Positions 41,937 through 49,247 of a DNA stretch of 64,000 bases are shown in pieces (within the stretch, counting starts at the first letter, position 1; each line of letters starts with the position of its first letter). The stretch spans positions 3,528,001 through 3,592,000 of the forward strand of contig CP020563.1 of NCBI GenBank assembly GCA_002082585.1, given 5' to 3'. The stretch comes from Kitasatospora albolonga. GTDB taxonomy: Bacteria > Actinomycetota > Actinomycetes > Streptomycetales > Streptomycetaceae. The position numbers and the translations under genes were made by a program. The notes beneath the pieces were generated by a model. That model was not told the DNA's origin. It worked only from the letters and a program-made list of their open reading frames with translations, and did no database searches.

Positions 41937-42536
41937 TCAATCCCCCCGGTCCCCCCGGTCCGCAGCCAACCCATGCAGGACGACGCCCCACACCGCGTCC
42001 CCCGCCGCCACCGCCCCCGGCGCCGCGTCCGGGGGCGTCCCCCGGGCGGCCATGGCGCCCTCCGCCAGGTGTGCCAGCAGGGCCACCGCGTCCTCGGGTG
42101 CGACGCCGGGGCGGAGCCGCCGGGTGCTGTGGGCCCGGTCGAGCAGGCGGCGGAGGGGCGGGAGCCAGAGCTCGGCCAGCGGGGGCGCGTCCTCGGGCGG
42201 GTCGGCTTCCAGGCGGCGGACGGCGCGTACGAAGGGGTCCTCGTGCGCCAGCCGGGCCAGCGCGCCGATCAGGGTCCGCAGGTCCCGCAACGGGTCGGCG
42301 GCGGGGGCGCGTTGCTCCAGCTCCTCCAGGCAGCGCCGGAAGCGGGCGCGCCCGGTCGTGCGCACCTCGTCGGCCAGGGCGCTCTTGTTCCGGAAGTGGA
42401 AGGTCAGCGCGCCGACCGAGGTCGCGGCCCGCCGGGCCACCCGCTGGAGGGAAACACCGTCGTAGCCCCGCTCGGCGAACTCGACGGCCGCCGCCGCCAA
42501 CACGGTCCGGCGCGTCCTGGCCGCCCGTTCCTGCAT
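41937..42536 (-). CDS. TetR regulator, possibly butyrolactone-receptor-like
   Basis: The ATG at 42536 follows GAGGAGAAGG and gives 199 residues. The N-terminal DNA-binding domain reads RTRRTVLAAAAVEFAERGYD, VSLQRVARRAATSVGALTFHF, close to the ArpA/ScbR group. The C-terminal domain is more divergent (LADEVRTTGRARFRRCLEE). It is divergent from the IS701-like gene, with the 10-bp inverted repeat at 42587-42611 between them as likely operator. The ligand is unknown. Confidence 0.85.
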   Translation of the reverse strand: MQERAARTRRTVLAAAAVEFAERGYDGVSLQRVARRAATSVGALTFHFRNKSALADEVRTTGRARFRRCLEELEQRAPAADPLRDLRTLIGALARLAHEDPFVRAVRRLEADPPEDAPPLAELWLPPLRRLLDRAHSTRRLRPGVAPEDAVALLAHLAEGAMAARGTPPDAAPGAVAAGDAVWGVVLHGLAADRGDRGD

Positions 42537-42586
42537 GCGCCTTCTCCTCGAACCTCGGCAAGTCGTCGAACTCCCCCTCAGAAATA

Positions 42587-42611
42587 TAACGAACATTCTC
42601 TATGTTTGTTA
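42587..42611. promoter_or_regulatory. TAACGAACAT-N5-ATGTTTGTTA inverted repeat
   Basis: Ten-base arms with one mismatch and a 5-nt spacer lie in the 110-nt divergent region between the TetR and IS701-like genes. It is the likely TetR operator controlling both. Confidence 0.65.
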
Positions 42612-42646
42612 GTCTGCTCAACGACGCTCACCTGGGAGGGACTGAA

Positions 42647-43765
42647 GTGACGACGACGCACGAAACGCCCGACACGGCGACGGGCCGACCGCTGGGCGAC
42701 CTGTCCCGGCTCCTGTTCGGCCATCTGCACCGCTCCGACCAGCAGCGTTGGGGGCGCGTGTACCTACAGGGCCTGCTGCGCACGGACGGGAAGAAGACCG
42801 TGCGGCGCATGGCGGCCGTCGTGACCGGCTCCGAGGCCGCGTCGACGTCACTGCACCAGTTCGTGAACGCCAGCCCGTGGGAGTGGGCCCCGGCGCGCGG
42901 CGAGCTGGCCCGCTGGGCCGCCCGGTCGCTGCCGGTGCGGGCCTGGACCCTGGCACCGGCGGTGCTGCCCAAGCGGGGCGACCGCTCGGCCGGGGTGCAC
43001 CAGCGCTTCCTCCCGGATTCCGGGCGTACCGTCAACTGCCAGCTGGGCATCGGCCTGTTCCTGGACGTCGGGCGGGCCCACGTCCCGGTCGACTGGCGCC
43101 TCTTCCTCCCTCCCCGGTTCACCGGCGACACCGCCGTACGCGACCGGGCGAAGATCCCCGCGGCGACCCGGGCCCAGCCGCTGTGGGAGCACGCCCTGAG
43201 CCTGGTCCAGGAGATGGCGCCCCGGGCGGACGGGCGGACGGCGCCGGTGGTGGCCGACCTGACCGCCCTGTGCGACATCGCGCCGCTGGCCCGGCGGCTC
43301 CGGGACGGCGGGCACCCCTTCGTCCTCGCCATCCCGGGCCAGAGCACCCTGGACGGACCCGAACTGCCTCCGGGCGAACGGGAGTCGGCGCGGGCGCTGC
43401 TGCTGCGCCGGGGCGTACGGCACCCGGCGGGGGCGGGGCGGCAGATCCTCTCGTACGAGCTCCCCGCGCGCGGGCCGAGGCCGGGCGGCGAGCACGGCCA
43501 CGGGCCGGGCCAGCTGATGGCCGAGTGGGACGCGGGCACCGGGCGGCCGGGCCGGATCTGGCTGACGAACATCACCGACCGCCACCCGGCCGAACTGCTG
43601 GAGCTGGCCCGTTCGCCCCGGGGCGCGCAGGCGGCGGTCCGGCGCATGGGCGAGGACTTCGGCCTGCTCGACTTCGAAGGGCGCTCCTTCCCCGGCTGGC
43701 ACCGGCACATGACGCTCGTCTCGGCGGCCTACGCATGCAGCGCCCTGGAGGGCATGACCCCCTGA
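42647..43765 (+). CDS. IS701-type transposase-like protein
   Basis: The GTG at 42647 follows GGGAGGG and gives 372 residues. LSRLLFGHLHRSDQQRWGRV, GLLRTDGKKTVRRMAAVVTG and HQRFLPDSGRTVNCQLGIGL are typical of IS701/DDE_5 transposases. The gene is intact, single, without visible terminal repeats or target duplication, and under an operator shared with TetR. Domesticated IS701-like genes of this kind occur beside butyrolactone-receptor loci in Streptomyces (recollection). I suspect a non-mobile regulatory or retired role. Confidence 0.78.
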   Translation: MTTTHETPDTATGRPLGDLSRLLFGHLHRSDQQRWGRVYLQGLLRTDGKKTVRRMAAVVTGSEAASTSLHQFVNASPWEWAPARGELARWAARSLPVRAWTLAPAVLPKRGDRSAGVHQRFLPDSGRTVNCQLGIGLFLDVGRAHVPVDWRLFLPPRFTGDTAVRDRAKIPAATRAQPLWEHALSLVQEMAPRADGRTAPVVADLTALCDIAPLARRLRDGGHPFVLAIPGQSTLDGPELPPGERESARALLLRRGVRHPAGAGRQILSYELPARGPRPGGEHGHGPGQLMAEWDAGTGRPGRIWLTNITDRHPAELLELARSPRGAQAAVRRMGEDFGLLDFEGRSFPGWHRHMTLVSAAYACSALEGMTP

Positions 43766-43770
43766 TCCCA

Positions 43771-43852
43771 TTGCTTGCTTATGCAAGTATATACCAGTCG
43801 GAGCCGTCTCCGTAAGCTCCAACACTCCCCAGATGATTGCATGGGCATGTAT
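43771..43852 (+). promoter_or_regulatory. Paired TTGCNTGNNCANGCAA-type sites before marR (66 bp apart)
   Basis: TTGCTTGCTTATGCAA (43771-43786) and TTGCATGGGCATGTAT (43837-43852) precede the MarR gene at 43889. The first is a full palindrome; the second keeps the left half and CANG. The 66-bp start-to-start distance recurs at three other promoters in this block. Confidence 0.7.
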
Positions 43853-43888
43853 CTTGTTGCTATCGCAGTCGAGAAGGGGAGCTGTTCC

Positions 43889-44332
43889 ATGACGATCAAC
43901 CAACAGCCACGCGCCGCCTCCGATCAGGCCATGTGGGACGCCGTCCTCGGCCTGCACACCTTCGTGGAGCGCCAGCTCGCACACACCCTCCAGCGCCGCT
44001 ACGGCGTCGGCCTGTCCGAGTACCGGGCCCTGGAGACCCTTTACCAGGCCGAGAAGGGCGAGTGCCGCATGCAGGAGCTCGCGGACCACATCGGCCTGGG
44101 CCAGAGCTCGGTGACGCGCCTGGTGGGACGGCTGGACAGCGCCGGATACGCCTACAAGGACAACTGCGCCGACGACAAGCGCGGCGTCTTCGCCGTCATC
44201 ACCGACGAGGGCCGCAAGCGCTACCAGGAAGCCCGTGCCGCCTACGCCGACGTCCTCAGCTCGGCCCTCAACACCGCGAGCGCCGACGACCAGCTCGCCC
44301 GGGCGGTGCAGGCGCTGCGCAGCGCAGCCTGA
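43889..44332 (+). CDS. MarR family regulator, candidate master of the local regulon
   Basis: The ATG at 43889 follows GAGAAGGGGAGCTG and gives 147 residues. The winged helix is clear: LSEYRALETLYQAEKGECRM, LADHIGLGQSSVTRLVGRLD and DDKRGVFAVITDEGRKRYQ. Cys residues at CRMQEL and NCADDKR could serve as redox switches, as in OhrR-type MarR proteins, but that is speculative. The paired TTGC sites before its own gene and before three neighbouring units suggest it controls them. Confidence 0.87.
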   Translation: MTINQQPRAASDQAMWDAVLGLHTFVERQLAHTLQRRYGVGLSEYRALETLYQAEKGECRMQELADHIGLGQSSVTRLVGRLDSAGYAYKDNCADDKRGVFAVITDEGRKRYQEARAAYADVLSSALNTASADDQLARAVQALRSAA

Positions 44333-44395
44333 CGCGATCACGACGGGCGACAGACGGCGGGAGGCGACCGGGATGCCCCGGCGCCCCGCCGCCTT

Positions 44396-44480
44396 TTGCA
44401 TGTTCGGACCTCTTCCGGGACGGAGAGAGCTGCGGCCCGGGCCACGCGAGCACCCACCACATACTTGCTTGACCAGGCAA
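44396..44480 (+). promoter_or_regulatory. Paired TTGC-type sites between marR and the receptor-like TetR (69 bp apart)
   Basis: TTGCATGTTCGGACCT (44396-44411, only the left half conserved) and TTGCTTGACCAGGCAA (44465-44480, near-perfect palindrome) are 69 bp apart. They could serve the TetR gene at 44712 or the end of the marR transcript. Confidence 0.5.
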
Positions 44481-44545
44481 AAATTTCAGGTCGCCACCCC
44501 ACCCCCGCCCCCGTGACGAGCGCCCGCAGCACCTCCCCACCAAGA

Positions 44546-44696
44546 AAAAAGAATGATCTCTTTATTTTGCGCCCGGACTCAAGCGGTGAACCCTTGAGCC
44601 CTTCGGAATTGATCCACCCTCAAAGCAGACAAAAGATACCGAAGGGCGCTTGCCTCGACCTCGATCGAGCCAGGTAACATAAGGGTCATTCTTTTT
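44546..44696 (+). promoter_or_regulatory. AAAAAGAATGA / TCATTCTTTTT inverted pair before the receptor-like TetR
   Basis: AAAAAGAATGA (44546-44556) and its exact reverse complement (44686-44696) are 129 nt apart. The second overlaps the region just before the ribosome site of the TetR gene. They are possible autoregulatory operators; they do not obviously match the published ARE consensus as I remember it. Confidence 0.45.
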
Positions 44697-44711
44697 GGGA
44701 AGGTGAGGGGC

Positions 44712-45344
44712 ATGGCGCAACTGAAACAGGAGCGGGCGGAACAGACCCGTCGCACTCTTCTCCATGCGGCGGCAGAGGTCTTCGACGAGTTCGGTTACGC
44801 GGGTGCCAGCGTCACCCGCATCCTCAAGCGCGCCGGGGTGACGGCGGGGGCGCTCTACTTCCACTTCGGTTCCAAGGAGGATCTCGCCAAGGCGGTGATG
44901 AACAGCCAGCCGGAGACCCTGGTCCCGCTGGTCGCCGCCGGGGGGCTGCAACGGCTCATCGACCTCACCCTCGTATGGTCGTGGCAGCTCCAGCGCGACC
45001 CGCTGCTCCGGGCCGGTGTACGGCTGACGAACGAGCAGACCTCCGCCGGCGGCCCCGAGAACGCCGACCCGTACGAGAAGTTCCGCGCGATCATGACCGG
45101 CTTCCTCCAGGACGCCCAGAACGACGGGGAGCTGCAGCCGGGCGTCGATCCGTCCGTGGTCGCGGAGTTCGTGGTCGCCGCCTGTACCGGCATGCAGATG
45201 TACTCCAACGTCGTCAGCGGCCGCAAGGACCTGCCCGAGCGCACCCAGCAGATGTGGAACCTGATCCTCCCGGGCATCGCCGTCCCGTCCGTGATCACCC
45301 GCGCCGACGCGAGCCCCGCCCGGGGCGCCGCGATGATGCCCTGA
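44712..45344 (+). CDS. ScbR/ArpA-type gamma-butyrolactone receptor-like TetR
   Basis: The ATG at 44712 follows AAGGTGAGGGG and gives 210 residues. The DNA-binding domain (RAEQTRRTLLHAAAEVFDEF, VTRILKRAGVTAGALYFHF, GSKEDLAKAVM) and the C-terminal pattern LLRAGVRLTNEQ, FVVAACTGMQMYSNVVSGR, ILPGIAVPSVITRADAS match the ScbR/ArpA autoregulator-receptor family. No AfsA/ScbA-type synthase gene lies in this window, so it is an orphan here. It may sense a butyrolactone or related signal, or be a pseudoreceptor. Confidence 0.87.
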   Translation: MAQLKQERAEQTRRTLLHAAAEVFDEFGYAGASVTRILKRAGVTAGALYFHFGSKEDLAKAVMNSQPETLVPLVAAGGLQRLIDLTLVWSWQLQRDPLLRAGVRLTNEQTSAGGPENADPYEKFRAIMTGFLQDAQNDGELQPGVDPSVVAEFVVAACTGMQMYSNVVSGRKDLPERTQQMWNLILPGIAVPSVITRADASPARGAAMMP

Positions 45345-45411
45345 CCGTTCCGGTCCTCACCGACCGCCGCCCCCTGCTCGACGGCCCCGGTCTCCGGGAG
45401 ATCGCCGAGGA

Positions 45412-45452
45412 CGGTTCTGCCGCCGTCCTCGCGGTGGACGGCGGCAGAACCG
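45412..45452. terminator. 17-bp perfect hairpin (first of two)
   Basis: CGGTTCTGCCGCCGTCC (45412-45428) pairs perfectly with 45436-45452 around a 7-nt loop, between convergent TetR and SMR genes. Probably a bidirectional terminator. Confidence 0.75.
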
Positions 45453-45465
45453 CGCTGTGACGGGT

Positions 45466-45524
45466 AGTACGCCCCGGGCGGCCGCCGCCCATTCCTGATG
45501 GGAGGCAGCCGCCCGGGGCGTACT
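45466..45524. terminator. 17-bp perfect hairpin (second of two)
   Basis: AGTACGCCCCGGGCGGC (45466-45482) pairs perfectly with 45508-45524, enclosing a smaller CCCAT/ATGGG stem. It lies 41 nt before the stop of the SMR gene. Confidence 0.75.
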
Positions 45525-45564
45525 GTCCGAAGAAGCCTGGGGCACCGGGGCCGGGGAGGAACAG

Positions 45565-45984
45565 TCAGACCTGGAGGGCGCCGGGCCGCTCCGCGATCCG
45601 CTGCTCGGGCGGCTGGGGGGCTGCCACCGCCTCGGGCTTCGTGCGGTCGGCGAGCTTGAGCCAGATGACACCGACGATGATGACCGTCAGCCAGAGGCCC
45701 TTGGCCAGGGTGAGGGTCTCGTCGAAGAAGACCGGGCCGAGGACGGCGGCGCCGACCGCGCCGATGCCCGCCCAGACCGCGTAACCGATGCTGACCTCGA
45801 TGGTGCGGAGAGCCAGGCTCAGTGCGTAGAGCGTCAGCAGGAAGAACACCACGGCGACCAGGGACCAGGTCAGGATGGTGAAGCCCTCGCTGCCGCCGAC
45901 GGCGAGCGCGTATCCGATCTCGAAGACTCCCGCGAGCAGGAGGGAGAGCCAGGCGTTGGTGGAGCTCTTGGCCGCGTTGGACAT
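45565..45984 (-). CDS. SMR-family efflux subunit (second of pair)
   Basis: The ATG at 45984 gives 139 residues with four membrane helices and the SMR signature: LAGVFEIGYALAVGGSEGF includes the essential Glu, and IGYAVWAGIGAVGAAVLG includes the GYAxW motif. It carries a C-terminal extension of about 25 residues. It follows another SMR gene by 82 nt; paired SMR genes (EbrAB/YkkCD type) usually encode heterodimeric drug exporters or guanidinium-type exporters. The substrate is unknown. Confidence 0.88.
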   Translation of the reverse strand: MSNAAKSSTNAWLSLLLAGVFEIGYALAVGGSEGFTILTWSLVAVVFFLLTLYALSLALRTIEVSIGYAVWAGIGAVGAAVLGPVFFDETLTLAKGLWLTVIIVGVIWLKLADRTKPEAVAAPQPPEQRIAERPGALQV

Positions 45985-46066
45985 GGGAGGTGGTTCCTCT
46001 CTCAGGGATGGCGTCAGGTGGTTCGAGGGGGGCACTGCGTGCGGAGCCGGGGGGTGTTCACCGGGC

Positions 46067-46387
46067 TCAGGCGGAACCGCTCAGCTGGAGGCCGACGACA
46101 CCGCCGATGACCAGGACGATGCCGATCGCCTTGTTCCAGTTCAGACGCTGGCCGAAGAACAGCGCGCCGAGGATGGTGATACCGACGCCCGCGACGGAGG
46201 TCCACAGGGCGTAGCCGACGCCGACGTCGAAGGTCAGCAGCGCCTTGCTGAGGAAGAAGGTCGCGGCGGCACCGCTGGCCAGGGTGATGGCGGTCCACTT
46301 GCGGTTCTTGAAGCCCTCGGCCTTTCCGGCGGCGATGGCGACAACGATCTCGAAGATGATGGCGATGGCGAGGTGCAGCCAGTGCAT
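46067..46387 (-). CDS. SMR-family efflux subunit (first of pair)
   Basis: The 106-residue, four-helix protein has WLHLAIAIIFEIVVAIAAGK with the essential Glu, and VGYALWTSVAGVGITILGAL. It is standard SMR length, unlike its longer partner. It is the upstream member of the pair and 191 nt downstream of the deaminase gene, so the three may share a promoter region near 47083-47166. No TTGC-type site was seen immediately before it. Confidence 0.88.
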   Translation of the reverse strand: MHWLHLAIAIIFEIVVAIAAGKAEGFKNRKWTAITLASGAAATFFLSKALLTFDVGVGYALWTSVAGVGITILGALFFGQRLNWNKAIGIVLVIGGVVGLQLSGSA

Positions 46388-46537
46388 GGGAGGTCCTTCC
46401 CTACGGTGAATGAACAGAAGTGAGGGGGAAATCGGCGTGAAGGCGCGGGTCGTGGGGTGTGGGGCGTGAAGGGCGTACGAGGAGCCGTACGGCGGTGGCG
46501 CGGGGCTGAGCGGGACTGAGCTGGAGCCCGGCTGTCG

Positions 46538-46582
46538 CGGAACTCAGCTCCACGGAACTCGGCTCCGCGGAACTCGGCTCAG
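46538..46582. repeat. Three 15-bp tandem repeats at the deaminase 3' end
   Basis: CGGAACTCAGCTCCA, CGGAACTCGGCTCCG and CGGAACTCGGCTCAG follow one another, starting inside the last codon/stop of the deaminase and continuing downstream. Confidence 0.75.
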
Positions 46583-47046
46583 CTCCTGGTGAGGAAATCC
46601 TGGAACGGCTGCTCCGCCTCGGGCAGGTGCAGGGCCGTGACCTTGACGGGCCAGTCCGCCGGGTCCTGGGCGAAGAGGGTGTACGTGCTCGTGTAGTCGA
46701 AGCCGTACCGGGCGGCGGTCTTCCGGTCGGCGGCGTGCACGACATGGCCGATGCCCGCGTACCGCGCCGCCAGGTAGCACAGCGCGCAGGGCTCACCGGA
46801 GGCGAACAGAGTGGCTCCCGCCACGGCCCGGAGCCCGTGCCGGGCGGCGGCCTCCCGGAGGGCGACGACCTCGGCGTGGGCGGTCGGGTCGTTGTCCTCC
46901 CGGACCCGGTTGAAGCCGGTGCCCAGGACGCGCCCACCGCCCACGATCACGCCGGAGAAGGGGATGCCCCCCTGTGCGACATGCTCGCGGCTGAGCCGGA
47001 TCGCTTCGTGGGCGTACTCCGTCAGTTCGCTTTCGTCTGTACCCAT
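46579..47046 (-). CDS. Nucleoside/tRNA-type deaminase (CDA fold)
   Basis: The ATG at 47046 follows GGGAGAC and gives 155 residues. The zinc site is complete: TAHAEVVAL (His and catalytic Glu) and PCALCYLA (two Cys). The fold fits guanine/cytosine or small-molecule nucleoside deaminases. The TTGC site pair at 47083-47166 lies 37-120 nt upstream, placing it in the putative MarR regulon. With the SMR pair downstream, modification and export of a toxic base analogue is one idea (inference only). Confidence 0.85.
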   Translation of the reverse strand: MGTDESELTEYAHEAIRLSREHVAQGGIPFSGVIVGGGRVLGTGFNRVREDNDPTAHAEVVALREAAARHGLRAVAGATLFASGEPCALCYLAARYAGIGHVVHAADRKTAARYGFDYTSTYTLFAQDPADWPVKVTALHLPEAEQPFQDFLTRS

Positions 47047-47082
47047 GAGCAGTTCGTCTCCCGAGTTACCCTGATCGATCCA

Positions 47083-47166
47083 TTGCCTGCACATGCAAGC
47101 TTTTACTTCTCATGAATCGCCGTCGGCGATCCGATCCGAGGACACTAATCTTGCATGTGCATATAA
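47083..47166 (-). promoter_or_regulatory. Paired TTGC-type sites before the deaminase (68 bp apart)
   Basis: TTGCCTGCACATGCAA (47083-47098, full palindrome) and TTGCATGTGCATATAA (47151-47166, degenerate right end) lie in the gap between the deaminase start and the Old Yellow Enzyme stop. Confidence 0.7.
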
Positions 47167-47172
47167 CCAGTG

Positions 47173-48363
47173 TCAAGCGTTGCTGTACGCCCGGGCGTTG
47201 GCCAGGGTCGCCAGCGGCTCGAGCACCTGAGGGTCGAACGGCGCCAGGGCCGCGCCCTCGGCCACCCTGCGCGGCAGATCGGGGTTGGCCAGCGCGCCCG
47301 TCCCGATCGCCAGGACATCGGCGTGCGGCCCGTCCAGGACGTACCGCGCCACCGCGTCCTCGTGCAGCCCGCCATTGGCGATGACGGGGAGCCCGGTGAC
47401 CTTCCGGGCGAGCGCGGGAAGCGTCGGCCCGTGCGGCAGCCAGTCCCGTCCGCTGCCCGCGAGGTGCAGATAGTTGGCCCCGGCCGAGGCGACCGCCGTG
47501 AAGAGGGCACCCGCCTCGGCGTCACCCCCCTGCCACCGCCACGAGAAGTTGTTGATCTTCCCCTGGGAGAGCCGGACACCGACCGGGAAGCCGGGCCCGA
47601 CCGCGCTCCTGACCTCGGCCGTCACCTCCCGTACGAGCCGTGAGCGGCCCTCGGCGTCCCCGCCGTACGCATCGGTGCGCAGATTGGTGTACGGGGTGAG
47701 GAACTGGTCGAGCAGATAGCCGTTGGCCCCGTGGACCTCCACCCCGTCGAAGCCGACGGCACGGGCCCGTACGGCGGCGGCCGCGAAGCCCTCTACGGCC
47801 TCGGCGATCTGCTCGCGGGTCATCTCCAGCGGTACGGGCCAGGGGCCGCCGCCCCGGTACTTGGCCAGCTGCTCGCCCATCGGCCGCACCGCCGACGGGC
47901 CCGCGGCCCGGTCGCGGAACCGGTTGCCCTGTGCGAGGGCCCCGGCGTGCATCAGCTGGAGGACGACGCGCGCCCCGGCGGCGTGCGCCCTCTCCACGAC
48001 GGGCCGCCAGGCGTCGGCCTGCGCCTCGTCGGTGATGCCGGGCTGGTGCAGGTACCCCTGGCTGAAGGCCCGGTCGGTGTAGGTCCCCTCGGTGATGAGG
48101 AGCCCGAAACCGCCCTCGGCGAAGGCCGCGTAGTACCCGGCCATCTCGTCGGTCGCCCGGCCGTCCTCGGTCGCGGAGACCCGGGTCATGGGGGCGAGGG
48201 CGAACCTGTTGCGCAGATCGAGCCCCGCGAACCGGCAGGCGGCGAGGGCGGGATGGGCGTCACCCACCGGGACGGACCCGGCGCCACTCATCGGAGCGGG
48301 ATGGATGCCGGTCGTCGGAGCGGGATGGATGCCGGTCGTCGGGGCGGGATGGATGCCGGTCAC
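47173..48363 (-). CDS. NADH:flavin oxidoreductase / Old Yellow Enzyme
   Basis: The GTG at 48363 is 1 nt after the DsbA-like stop, so the genes are coupled; an ATG at 48291 is an alternative. The product (396 residues) is an FMN-dependent OYE-type TIM barrel: RNRFALAPMTRVSATEDGRA, LQLMHAGALAQ, GFDGVEVHGANGYLLDQFLTPYTN and PVIANGGLHEDAV. It reduces activated alkenes or quinone-like electrophiles. The first 24 residues are three copies of TGIHPAP(T), encoded by a 24-bp tandem repeat, an unusual addition. Confidence 0.88.
   Translation of the reverse strand: MTGIHPAPTTGIHPAPTTGIHPAPMSGAGSVPVGDAHPALAACRFAGLDLRNRFALAPMTRVSATEDGRATDEMAGYYAAFAEGGFGLLITEGTYTDRAFSQGYLHQPGITDEAQADAWRPVVERAHAAGARVVLQLMHAGALAQGNRFRDRAAGPSAVRPMGEQLAKYRGGGPWPVPLEMTREQIAEAVEGFAAAAVRARAVGFDGVEVHGANGYLLDQFLTPYTNLRTDAYGGDAEGRSRLVREVTAEVRSAVGPGFPVGVRLSQGKINNFSWRWQGGDAEAGALFTAVASAGANYLHLAGSGRDWLPHGPTLPALARKVTGLPVIANGGLHEDAVARYVLDGPHADVLAIGTGALANPDLPRRVAEGAALAPFDPQVLEPLATLANARAYSNA
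48292..48363. repeat. 24-bp tandem repeat, three copies, at the OYE start
   Basis: Units at 48292-48315, 48316-48339 and 48340-48363 are nearly identical (GGATGGATGCCGGTCGT core). They encode the repeated TGIHPAPT at the N-terminus of the Old Yellow Enzyme if translation begins at 48363. Confidence 0.85.
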
Positions 48364-48364
48364 G

Positions 48365-49021
48365 TCAGCACTTCCCGTCGATGCCGCAGGCGGCGCCGTA
48401 ACCGGCGTTCTCCTCCTGCTGCGCCCGGGCGTCCAGGATCGCCTTGCGCACCTGGGCGGGACGCGGGACGCCTTCGATCCGGACATCGCCGATGAGCATG
48501 GTGGGAACCACCTGCACCTGATGGGCCGCCGCTTCCCGCAGGGCCTCCTGGTGCCGGGCGCGGTAGGTGCCGTCCGCCAGCGCGGCCCGGAACCCGGCCT
48601 CGTCCAGGCCGATCCCACCGGCCAGCGCGGCGAGGACGTCGGCCTGCCCCAGATCCTGGTCCTCCTGGAAGAAGGCGCGGAACATCCGCCGGGTGTACTC
48701 GGTGCCGAGGCCGTGCTCGGCGGCGTACTGGTAACCCTCGAAGGCGAGGGCGGTGTAGGGCTGGGGGGACACGGTGGGGAGCGTGATGTCGACCCCCAGG
48801 CGTCGGGCCATGGGGTAGACGGCCCGCTCCCAGATGGCGGGCAGGTACTCGTCCTCCGGCCGCAGGGTGGGCTGCGGGTGGGCCCGCAGCTCGAAGGGCA
48901 TCCACTCGACTTCCACATCGGCGCCGACGTCCTTGATCGCCTCTTCGAGCGGGCCCTCGGCCAGCATGCAGAAGGGGCAGACGTAGTCGGACCAGATCTT
49001 GATCTTCACGGGATCAGCCAT
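48365..49021 (-). CDS. DsbA-family (FrnE-like) oxidoreductase
   Basis: The ATG at 49021 follows GGAG and gives 218 residues. The thioredoxin-like fold starts with VKIKIWSDYVCPFCMLAEG, carrying the CPFC active site, and VVPTMLIGDVRIEGV has the cis-Pro loop. FrnE/DsbA-like proteins are cytoplasmic thiol-disulfide enzymes. Extra Cys residues at the end (GAACGIDGKC) suggest further disulfides. It heads a unit with the OYE gene and has two TTGC-type sites upstream. Confidence 0.87.
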   Translation of the reverse strand: MADPVKIKIWSDYVCPFCMLAEGPLEEAIKDVGADVEVEWMPFELRAHPQPTLRPEDEYLPAIWERAVYPMARRLGVDITLPTVSPQPYTALAFEGYQYAAEHGLGTEYTRRMFRAFFQEDQDLGQADVLAALAGGIGLDEAGFRAALADGTYRARHQEALREAAAHQVQVVPTMLIGDVRIEGVPRPAQVRKAILDARAQQEENAGYGAACGIDGKC

Positions 49022-49038
49022 GCGCAGGCTCCATATAT

Positions 49039-49118
49039 TTGATCGAGCAAGCAACAACATCTCGCGACGGGACGACGGGAGACGGGAGGGATTTCCAGAA
49101 GGTTGCACGATCATGCAC
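49039..49118 (-). promoter_or_regulatory. Paired TTGC-type sites before the DsbA/OYE unit (64 bp apart)
   Basis: TTGATCGAGCAAGCAA (49039-49054) and TTGCACGATCATGCAC (49103-49118) lie 18-97 nt upstream of the DsbA-like start, with 64 bp between their starts. Confidence 0.65.
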
Positions 49119-49247
49119 TTTGATGTCAAGCCTCCCGCCCCCGCCCCGGCCGCGCCGGGCAGCGAAAACGGCGGCGGCCCGAACTCCCGCGAGAGTTCGG
49201 GCCGCCGCCGTGACGGTGGTGCCTGTGCGCTGCTCCTGCGGACCTGC

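Follow-up and report, generated by a model that had tools for sequence, protein, structure and literature searches.

The window analysed here, 64,000 nt of the 8.03-Mb genome of Kitasatospora albolonga, contains within 5.4 kb eight 16-bp TTGC-type dyads arranged as four pairs, which raises the question of which regulator reads these sites and which genes it controls. A preliminary description assigned them to a MarR-family regulator encoded among the sites (43889..44332, + strand, 147 aa) and to four target units, one of them a TetR-family receptor gene. It is highly likely, from the comparisons presented below, that a cluster-situated MarR autorepressor acting on 16-bp TTGCnTGnnCAnGCAA operators controls marR itself, a deaminase-SMR2-SMR1 operon and a DsbA-OYE unit encoding a thiol oxidoreductase and an old-yellow-enzyme homologue. 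The best reading of the locus as a whole is that it represents the surviving control and export shell of a small natural-product cluster, whose production genes would have been lost in this strain.

All eight sites were found where the preliminary description placed them, with start-to-start distances of 66, 69, 68 and 64 bp, and seven of them have at most two mismatches, counted over the 12 fixed positions of the 16-bp motif. Ahead of marR, the distal operator (43771..43786, TTGCTTGCTTATGCAA) has one mismatch and overlaps a further dyad beginning at 43775, while the proximal operator (43837..43852, TTGCATGGGCATGTAT) has two, its 3' end overlapping TATCTT (43850–43855), a putative -10 element. 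At the deaminase/SMR operon, an exact site (47083..47098) follows the predicted promoter and precedes the ATG by 37 bp, and its partner (47151..47166, two mismatches) lies in the spacer between the -10 and a candidate -35 TTGACA (47171..47176, - strand). The DsbA/OYE unit has one operator near the gene (49039..49054), for which an overlapping register at 49035 scores slightly higher, and one in the promoter spacer (49103..49118), with a candidate -35 TTGACA at 49124..49129 (- strand). Finally, directly downstream of marR, an exact site (44465..44480, TTGCTTGACCAGGCAA) contains a candidate -35 TTGACC (44469–44474), and its upstream partner (44396..44411) has four mismatches and lies within the conserved element TTTTGCATGTTCGG. 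The description of each pair as one good and one weak palindrome holds for the marR, 44396/44465 and deaminase pairs and fails for the DsbA pair, in which both sites have two mismatches.

A symmetric matrix was built from 30 sites in the marR promoters of relatives, with the window excluded; its nine highest-scoring positions in the window all fall in this locus (two being overlapping registers) and cover seven of the eight sites. Site 49039 scores 13.9, inside the range of the best scores from six simulated 64-kb sequences (10.0–14.4), and its register at 49035 scores just above it (15.3). Site 44396 ranks 15th with a score of 7.2, under the best score of every simulation; taken alone, it is unrecognisable. 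It sits in an element, TTTTGCATGnTCGG, that recurs ahead of the same operator in relatives.

Relatives were sampled as stretches of 16–20 kb around the 29 best MarR matches in genus-mates (L058–L086, own genome aside) and as 20 further loci fetched by name from the S. griseus group and Kribbella. The 43 marR promoters compared are those of the window, of L058–L086 and of 13 named loci; L089, L091, L093, L095, L101 and L102 were left out as belonging to contigs already fetched, and L106 because its MarR is 29% identical. A site with at most three mismatches occurs within 330 bp upstream of marR in 42 of these promoters, compared with a shuffle expectation of about 0.06 per 330 bp, and the sole promoter lacking one (L086) belongs to a MarR 42% identical. 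With the same tolerance per site and a distance of 40–100 bp, pairs are present in 28/43 promoters, two of which are from Kribbella. The paired arrangement is conserved in orthologous loci, being found in 28 of the 33 whose MarR is at least 60% identical and in none of the 10 below that level. The deaminase or SMR operon carries a pair in every S. griseus-group locus in which this promoter was examined (13/13, window included), as does the DsbA unit (7/7).

The identity of the binder can be approached through loci in which the sites and MarR are separated. SMR2 heads its operon in 8 of 18 MarR-linked SMR2 loci, all eight with a pair directly upstream, and in the other 10 the deaminase gene or other genes intervene. 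By contrast, none of eight SMR2 homologues (65–70% identity) from seven genomes without a close MarR has a site at up to two mismatches within 450 bp; in these genomes, no MarR match is closer than about 40% identity (best E 1.6e-24). Likewise, a related biosynthetic locus of genome G203 (L133), located on a contig apart from marR, has no site at up to three mismatches in 19.9 kb. A genus-wide scan yielded 23 loci with an exact match (own genome aside): five adjoin marR, four of them with a partner site, and none of the 18 away from marR has a partner at up to three mismatches. The proposal of a local regulon bound by the neighbouring MarR thus gains support, since the sites track MarR in relatives and are absent from the MarR-less controls, and MarR is very probably their binder. 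In the G203 genome, the L133 core is 49–64% identical and has no MarR gene in its 19.9 kb, and the marR-SMR locus (L064) is without the core.

The MarR protein has a winged helix-turn-helix domain above curated cut-offs (PF12802, 40.4 bits against 27; PF01047, 33.6 against 24.6). Its nearest solved structures by profile are 3zpl (E 1.5e-21), then 3zmd, which we take to be the SCO3205-DNA complex and AbsC, respectively. Gln72, Ser73 and Arg77 align with the base-contacting Arg72, Ser73 and His77 of SCO3205, a difference in keeping with a different operator core, and Ser73 and Arg77 are invariant among 15 homologues. Cys93, near the start of the wing, is also invariant among them and is a candidate for a redox or electrophile role.

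Promoter elements could be assigned by inference from the sequence. A TTGACA hexamer is separated by 4 bp from the far operator in the deaminase/SMR promoter (13/13 loci) and by 5 bp from the operator in the DsbA promoter (7/7), so that the operator would occupy the spacer and reach the -10. Alignment of 27 marR promoters shows the near site as TTGCATGnnCATGTA in 24 and with CATGTA in every one; it runs into a TAnnnT hexamer, e.g. TATCTT or TACTCT, an overlap that would explain its imperfect symmetry. We infer that a MarR dimer binds the operators and represses its own gene, deaminase-SMR2-SMR1 and DsbA-OYE. At the latter two units, the operator between -35 and -10 would block RNA polymerase, and the second operator, 64–68 bp downstream in the presumed leader, probably adds repression, with independent or weakly cooperative binding; at marR, it is the site overlapping the putative -10 that would act. 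MarR would be freed from the DNA by a ligand, leading to export by the paired SMR transporter; the compound made by the ancestral cluster, or a mimic of that compound, is the probable ligand.

The near-constant spacing within pairs had been taken to suggest looping. A special MarR mechanism, in which the paired sites would be held in a DNA loop or bound as a rigid cooperative complex, appears unlikely, even though 47 of 48 pairs at three promoters are spaced by 61–71 bp. Phase bias is seen for the deaminase pairs (67–69 bp in 13/13, R 0.91) and the DsbA pairs (61–66 bp in 7/7, R 0.65, p ~0.05), in which the second operator lies at that distance downstream, toward the start codon, though the loci concerned are close relatives. 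Furthermore, the MarR proteins NadR/FarR have been proposed, in the accessible part of their description, to use distant operators together with IHF bending (PMC2791445). However, the marR pairs, spaced by 62–71 bp in 27 of 28 cases and by 77 bp in one, are spread over a helical turn without a preferred phase (Rayleigh R 0.19, p ~0.36, the register being ambiguous in a few), which leaves looping unsupported, with a small probability remaining for it at the deaminase promoter. A loop of about 65 bp also carries a high mechanical cost. Moreover, marR is transcribed away from the SMR or deaminase operon in the diverged loci, so pairing could have arisen simply from each of the two promoters having its own operator, as in SCO3205.

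Nor is a pair of operators unusual for the family, as had been suggested: in the portions of their descriptions available, SCO3205, NadR/FarR and SAV4189 use two or three. Multiple MarR operators are thus already known, and this regulon is one more MarR example. For SCO3205 of S. coelicolor, two pseudopalindromic operators were described in the 119 nt that separate its gene from a divergently transcribed neighbour, and autoregulation was proposed (PMC3737563). It resembles the MarR studied here in this pairing and as its nearest solved structure, and differs in the base-contacting residues given above and in its consensus, TTnAAnnnTCAA rather than TTGCnTGnnCAnGCAA; neither an SMR pair nor a biosynthetic cluster is mentioned for it in the part of the report available (PMC3737563). 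In S. avermitilis, SAV4189 binds across the putative -35 and -10 and represses both its own gene and the efflux-protein gene transcribed with it. Its palindromes end in TTGCC...CAA, as the present sites do; unlike them, they are 13 bp long with a 3-nt centre, three of them lie in its own promoter, and the efflux gene forms an operon with the regulator gene instead of a divergent SMR pair (PMC6036246, accessible text). The chlortetracycline regulator CtcS represses a divergent exporter gene, and both tetracycline and chlortetracycline weaken its DNA binding; it belongs to another pathway and its site is an inverted repeat of CTTGTC, according to the available text (PMC6905112). The Neisseria repressors NadR/FarR act through several operators set apart from one another, of which one covers the promoter and another is distant. 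As far as the accessible description of NadR goes, more than 100 bp separate its two strong operators, a weaker third operator and an IHF site lie in the interval, and there is no biosynthetic cluster (PMC2791445). No account of this locus, of its cluster or of a Streptomyces MarR-SMR system was found in titles and abstract openings of the open-licence literature.

The pair at 44396/44465 had been attributed to a ScbR-type TetR receptor homologue, scbR (44712..45344, + strand; NF041196, 226.9 bits against a cut-off of 150). Among 19 S. griseus-group relatives, 12 instead have the operator directly downstream of marR at the head of a biosynthetic gene set beginning with an adenylation gene. In all 13 S. 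griseus-group promoters examined, this operator contains the -35, which reads TTGACC in 12 and ATGACC in the other, and a TAnnnT -10 follows at 17–18 bp; 6/7 diverged biosynthetic promoters have a -10 at 16 or 19 bp (19/20 at 16–19 bp over all relatives). The window keeps TTGACC and has no TAnnnT -10 at that distance from it. Homology to relatives ends at or before ~44481 and restarts at ~44649, delimiting a deletion junction (44481..44649) at which L059 has about 7.4 kb more than the window; about 1.4 kb further (two genes) is missing between scbR and SMR1, compared with L059. Since the relatives' operator heads a biosynthetic operon, and since here the -10 is lost and homology is broken at 44481, the 44396/44465 pair is evidently a relic of that operon's promoter, with 44396 as the upstream partner of its operator, and did not evolve to control scbR. 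A GTGA-N6-TCAC box, presumably Crp-like, lies upstream of the biosynthetic promoter (in L059, upstream of 4193); it matches in 8/8 letters in 13 of 20 relatives and in 7/8 in six, is centred 28–30 bp before the -35 in those 19, and is degenerate in the window (~44435–44450).

As operators of scbR, the two sites were rejected, their ancestral position being before the adenylation gene; in the cluster-bearing S. griseus-group relatives, scbR lies 7–8 kb from marR and from this operator. The inclusion of the TetR gene in the regulon has to be withdrawn, its pair belonging to an operon missing from this genome. The gene probably lies outside this regulon, and the butyrolactone link drawn through the pair is an accident of the deletion. 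A broader alternative holds that the ScbR-type TetR, not MarR, binds all the sites and connects them to butyrolactone signalling. An ScbR-family gene does stand in the middle of the locus, about 230 bp downstream of a conserved operator in the window, but the sites are kept in L064–L072, L074–L076, L104 and L105, where the fetched stretch, which leaves the rest of those genomes aside, has no ScbR homologue. Together with the position of the operator in cluster-bearing relatives, this makes the alternative very improbable.

A few observations weigh against a MarR regulon built on paired operators. The marR loci were collected via their MarR, so that co-occurrence is partly built in, a bias lessened by the SMR2 and L133 controls. 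Five of the 33 close orthologues (L064, L065, L098, L099 and L100) have one marR site only, and homologues below 60% identity have a single site or a different spacing. When only two mismatches per site are allowed, 12 of the 19 loci L058–L076 retain the marR pair. The marR pairs counted at up to three mismatches include five (L058, L087, L088, L090 and L103) scored in a shifted register. In addition, most deaminase and DsbA promoters have a poor -10 hexamer. The loose motif is itself uninformative, as the window contains 14 matches at up to three mismatches compared with 11.8 in shuffles, i.e. no enrichment.

At up to two mismatches, the window has seven matching places, all inside the 5.4 kb, whereas 60 simulated 64-kb sequences gave a mean of 0.75, a maximum of 3 and no pair 40–100 bp apart. 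In the whole genome, the exact motif occurs at two places, both in this locus, and at up to one mismatch at four, three of them here (control pattern, five). The 42 places at up to two mismatches include the seven of this locus and indicate no global enrichment (reversed-pattern control, 108). Only three pairs at this tolerance lie less than 100 bp apart, namely those of marR, the deaminase and DsbA, so that the genome scan revealed no such pair outside this locus. That the sites are a functionless chance cluster of TTGC-rich palindromes, as the loose count might suggest, has a negligible probability, given that all seven places fall within 5.4 kb, that no simulation gave a pair and that the sites are conserved across species and into a second genus. 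Lone two-mismatch sites at genome positions 2868316, 405255 and 4012221 are unpaired and are possible remote members; the first resembles the operator of the biosynthetic operon.

What the lost operon encoded can be read from L059. Its gene set starts with an adenylation protein (PF00501), a carrier-sized protein (no Pfam match) and an ectoine-synthase-like cupin (PF06339), followed by an acyl-CoA dehydrogenase, a transglutaminase (PF01841), an arylmalonate-decarboxylase/EutA-like protein and a phosphopantetheinyl-transferase-like protein. The dehydrogenase falls below the equivalog cut-offs of PigA (342 of 500 bits) and RedW (329.7 of 650) and would be a relative of the prolyl-carrier-protein dehydrogenases (RedW/PigA), not a proven member. 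Adenylation, carrier, EctC-like, dehydrogenase and Amdase-like genes stand beside marR in Streptomyces L066, L067, L070 and L074 and in Kribbella L104 and L105; with the core beside marR in such diverged loci, its presence is probably ancestral. The adenylation, carrier, EctC-like and dehydrogenase genes are found together in 18 of the 33 loci with MarR at least 60% identical and in part or as fragments in two (L069 and L096), and the remaining 13, window included, have no core genes in the fetched stretch. The adenylation protein has no match at 1e-60 in the window's genome and has one in four of five other genomes tested. A phylum-wide search for it at E 1e-90 gave 0/396 genomes, in a set without a known carrier, and is uninformative. 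The window's genome has an EctC match elsewhere, only 36% identical and presumably a housekeeping copy.

The EctC-like cupin scores 101.7 bits in L059 and 111.9 in L104 (PF06339, cut-off 27). As in the ectoine synthase EctC, the iron ligands are kept, and unlike EctC, as presented in the accessible text, the cupin adjoins adenylation, carrier, dehydrogenase and transglutaminase genes (PMC6344544). When the Kribbella protein (L104) is aligned to 5onn, the ligands Glu57, Tyr84 and His92 are retained, together with Arg25, Thr40 and Tyr52; Trp21 and Asn38 are unmatched in this alignment. Such EctC-like chemistry suggests a cyclic amidine, and the product of the lost cluster was perhaps an ectoine-like one. 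The genes would be compatible with a product of the pyrrolyl-tetrahydropyrimidine type, and proline is a possible substrate of the adenylation domain. SMR proteins export cations, such as a cyclic amidine would be. If MarR behaves like CtcS, which loses DNA-binding strength in response to its own pathway's products, the ligand of MarR may be the cluster product. The cargo of the locus, previously interpreted as detoxification of a reactive small molecule, would be better read as belonging to a natural-product cluster and serving export and tailoring. A tentative extension, which we hold to be conceivable without favouring it, is that this control and self-resistance shell belongs to an undescribed family producing a MarR-sensed, SMR-exported cyclic amidine by means of a stand-alone adenylation domain, a carrier, a dehydrogenase, a transglutaminase and an ectoine-synthase-like cyclase, in which non-producers keep the MarR-SMR switch, perhaps as immunity against neighbouring strains that go on producing the compound.

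The locus provides a defined operator, a likely regulator and a reporter with which to seek the ligand of a cluster for which no description was found. The recurrent absence of the core with retention of MarR and SMR makes orphan self-resistance a testable idea. It also illustrates how a single-genome regulon map can mislead, the operator before the TetR gene being left over from a missing operon.

The remaining genes of the locus were assigned as follows. The first gene of the SMR operon (46579..47046, - strand) encodes an enzyme of guanine/cytidine-deaminase fold (PF00383, 64.5 bits), whose best solved match is the guanine deaminase 1wkq (E 2e-17). SMR subunits 2 (46067..46387, - strand) and 1 (45565..45984, - strand) reach 72.2 and 69.9 bits with PF00893 (cut-off 23.7), and none of the NCBIfam SMR models listed for the two proteins is above its cut-off. 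The DsbA-like thiol oxidoreductase (48365..49021, - strand; PF01323, 102.9 bits), presumably FrnE-like, is followed downstream by the old-yellow-enzyme family oxidoreductase (47173..48363, - strand; PF00724, 215 bits). On the other side of marR, an IS701-family DDE protein is encoded at 42602–43765 (+ strand). Its gene adjoins marR in many S. griseus-group loci, and homologues 38–44% identical also adjoin the cluster in Kribbella L104 and L105 and in L133; instead of being a recent insertion, it may belong to the cluster. Divergent from it, in the window as in relatives, lies a second ScbR-like TetR gene (41937–42596, - strand), 37% identical over the matched part.

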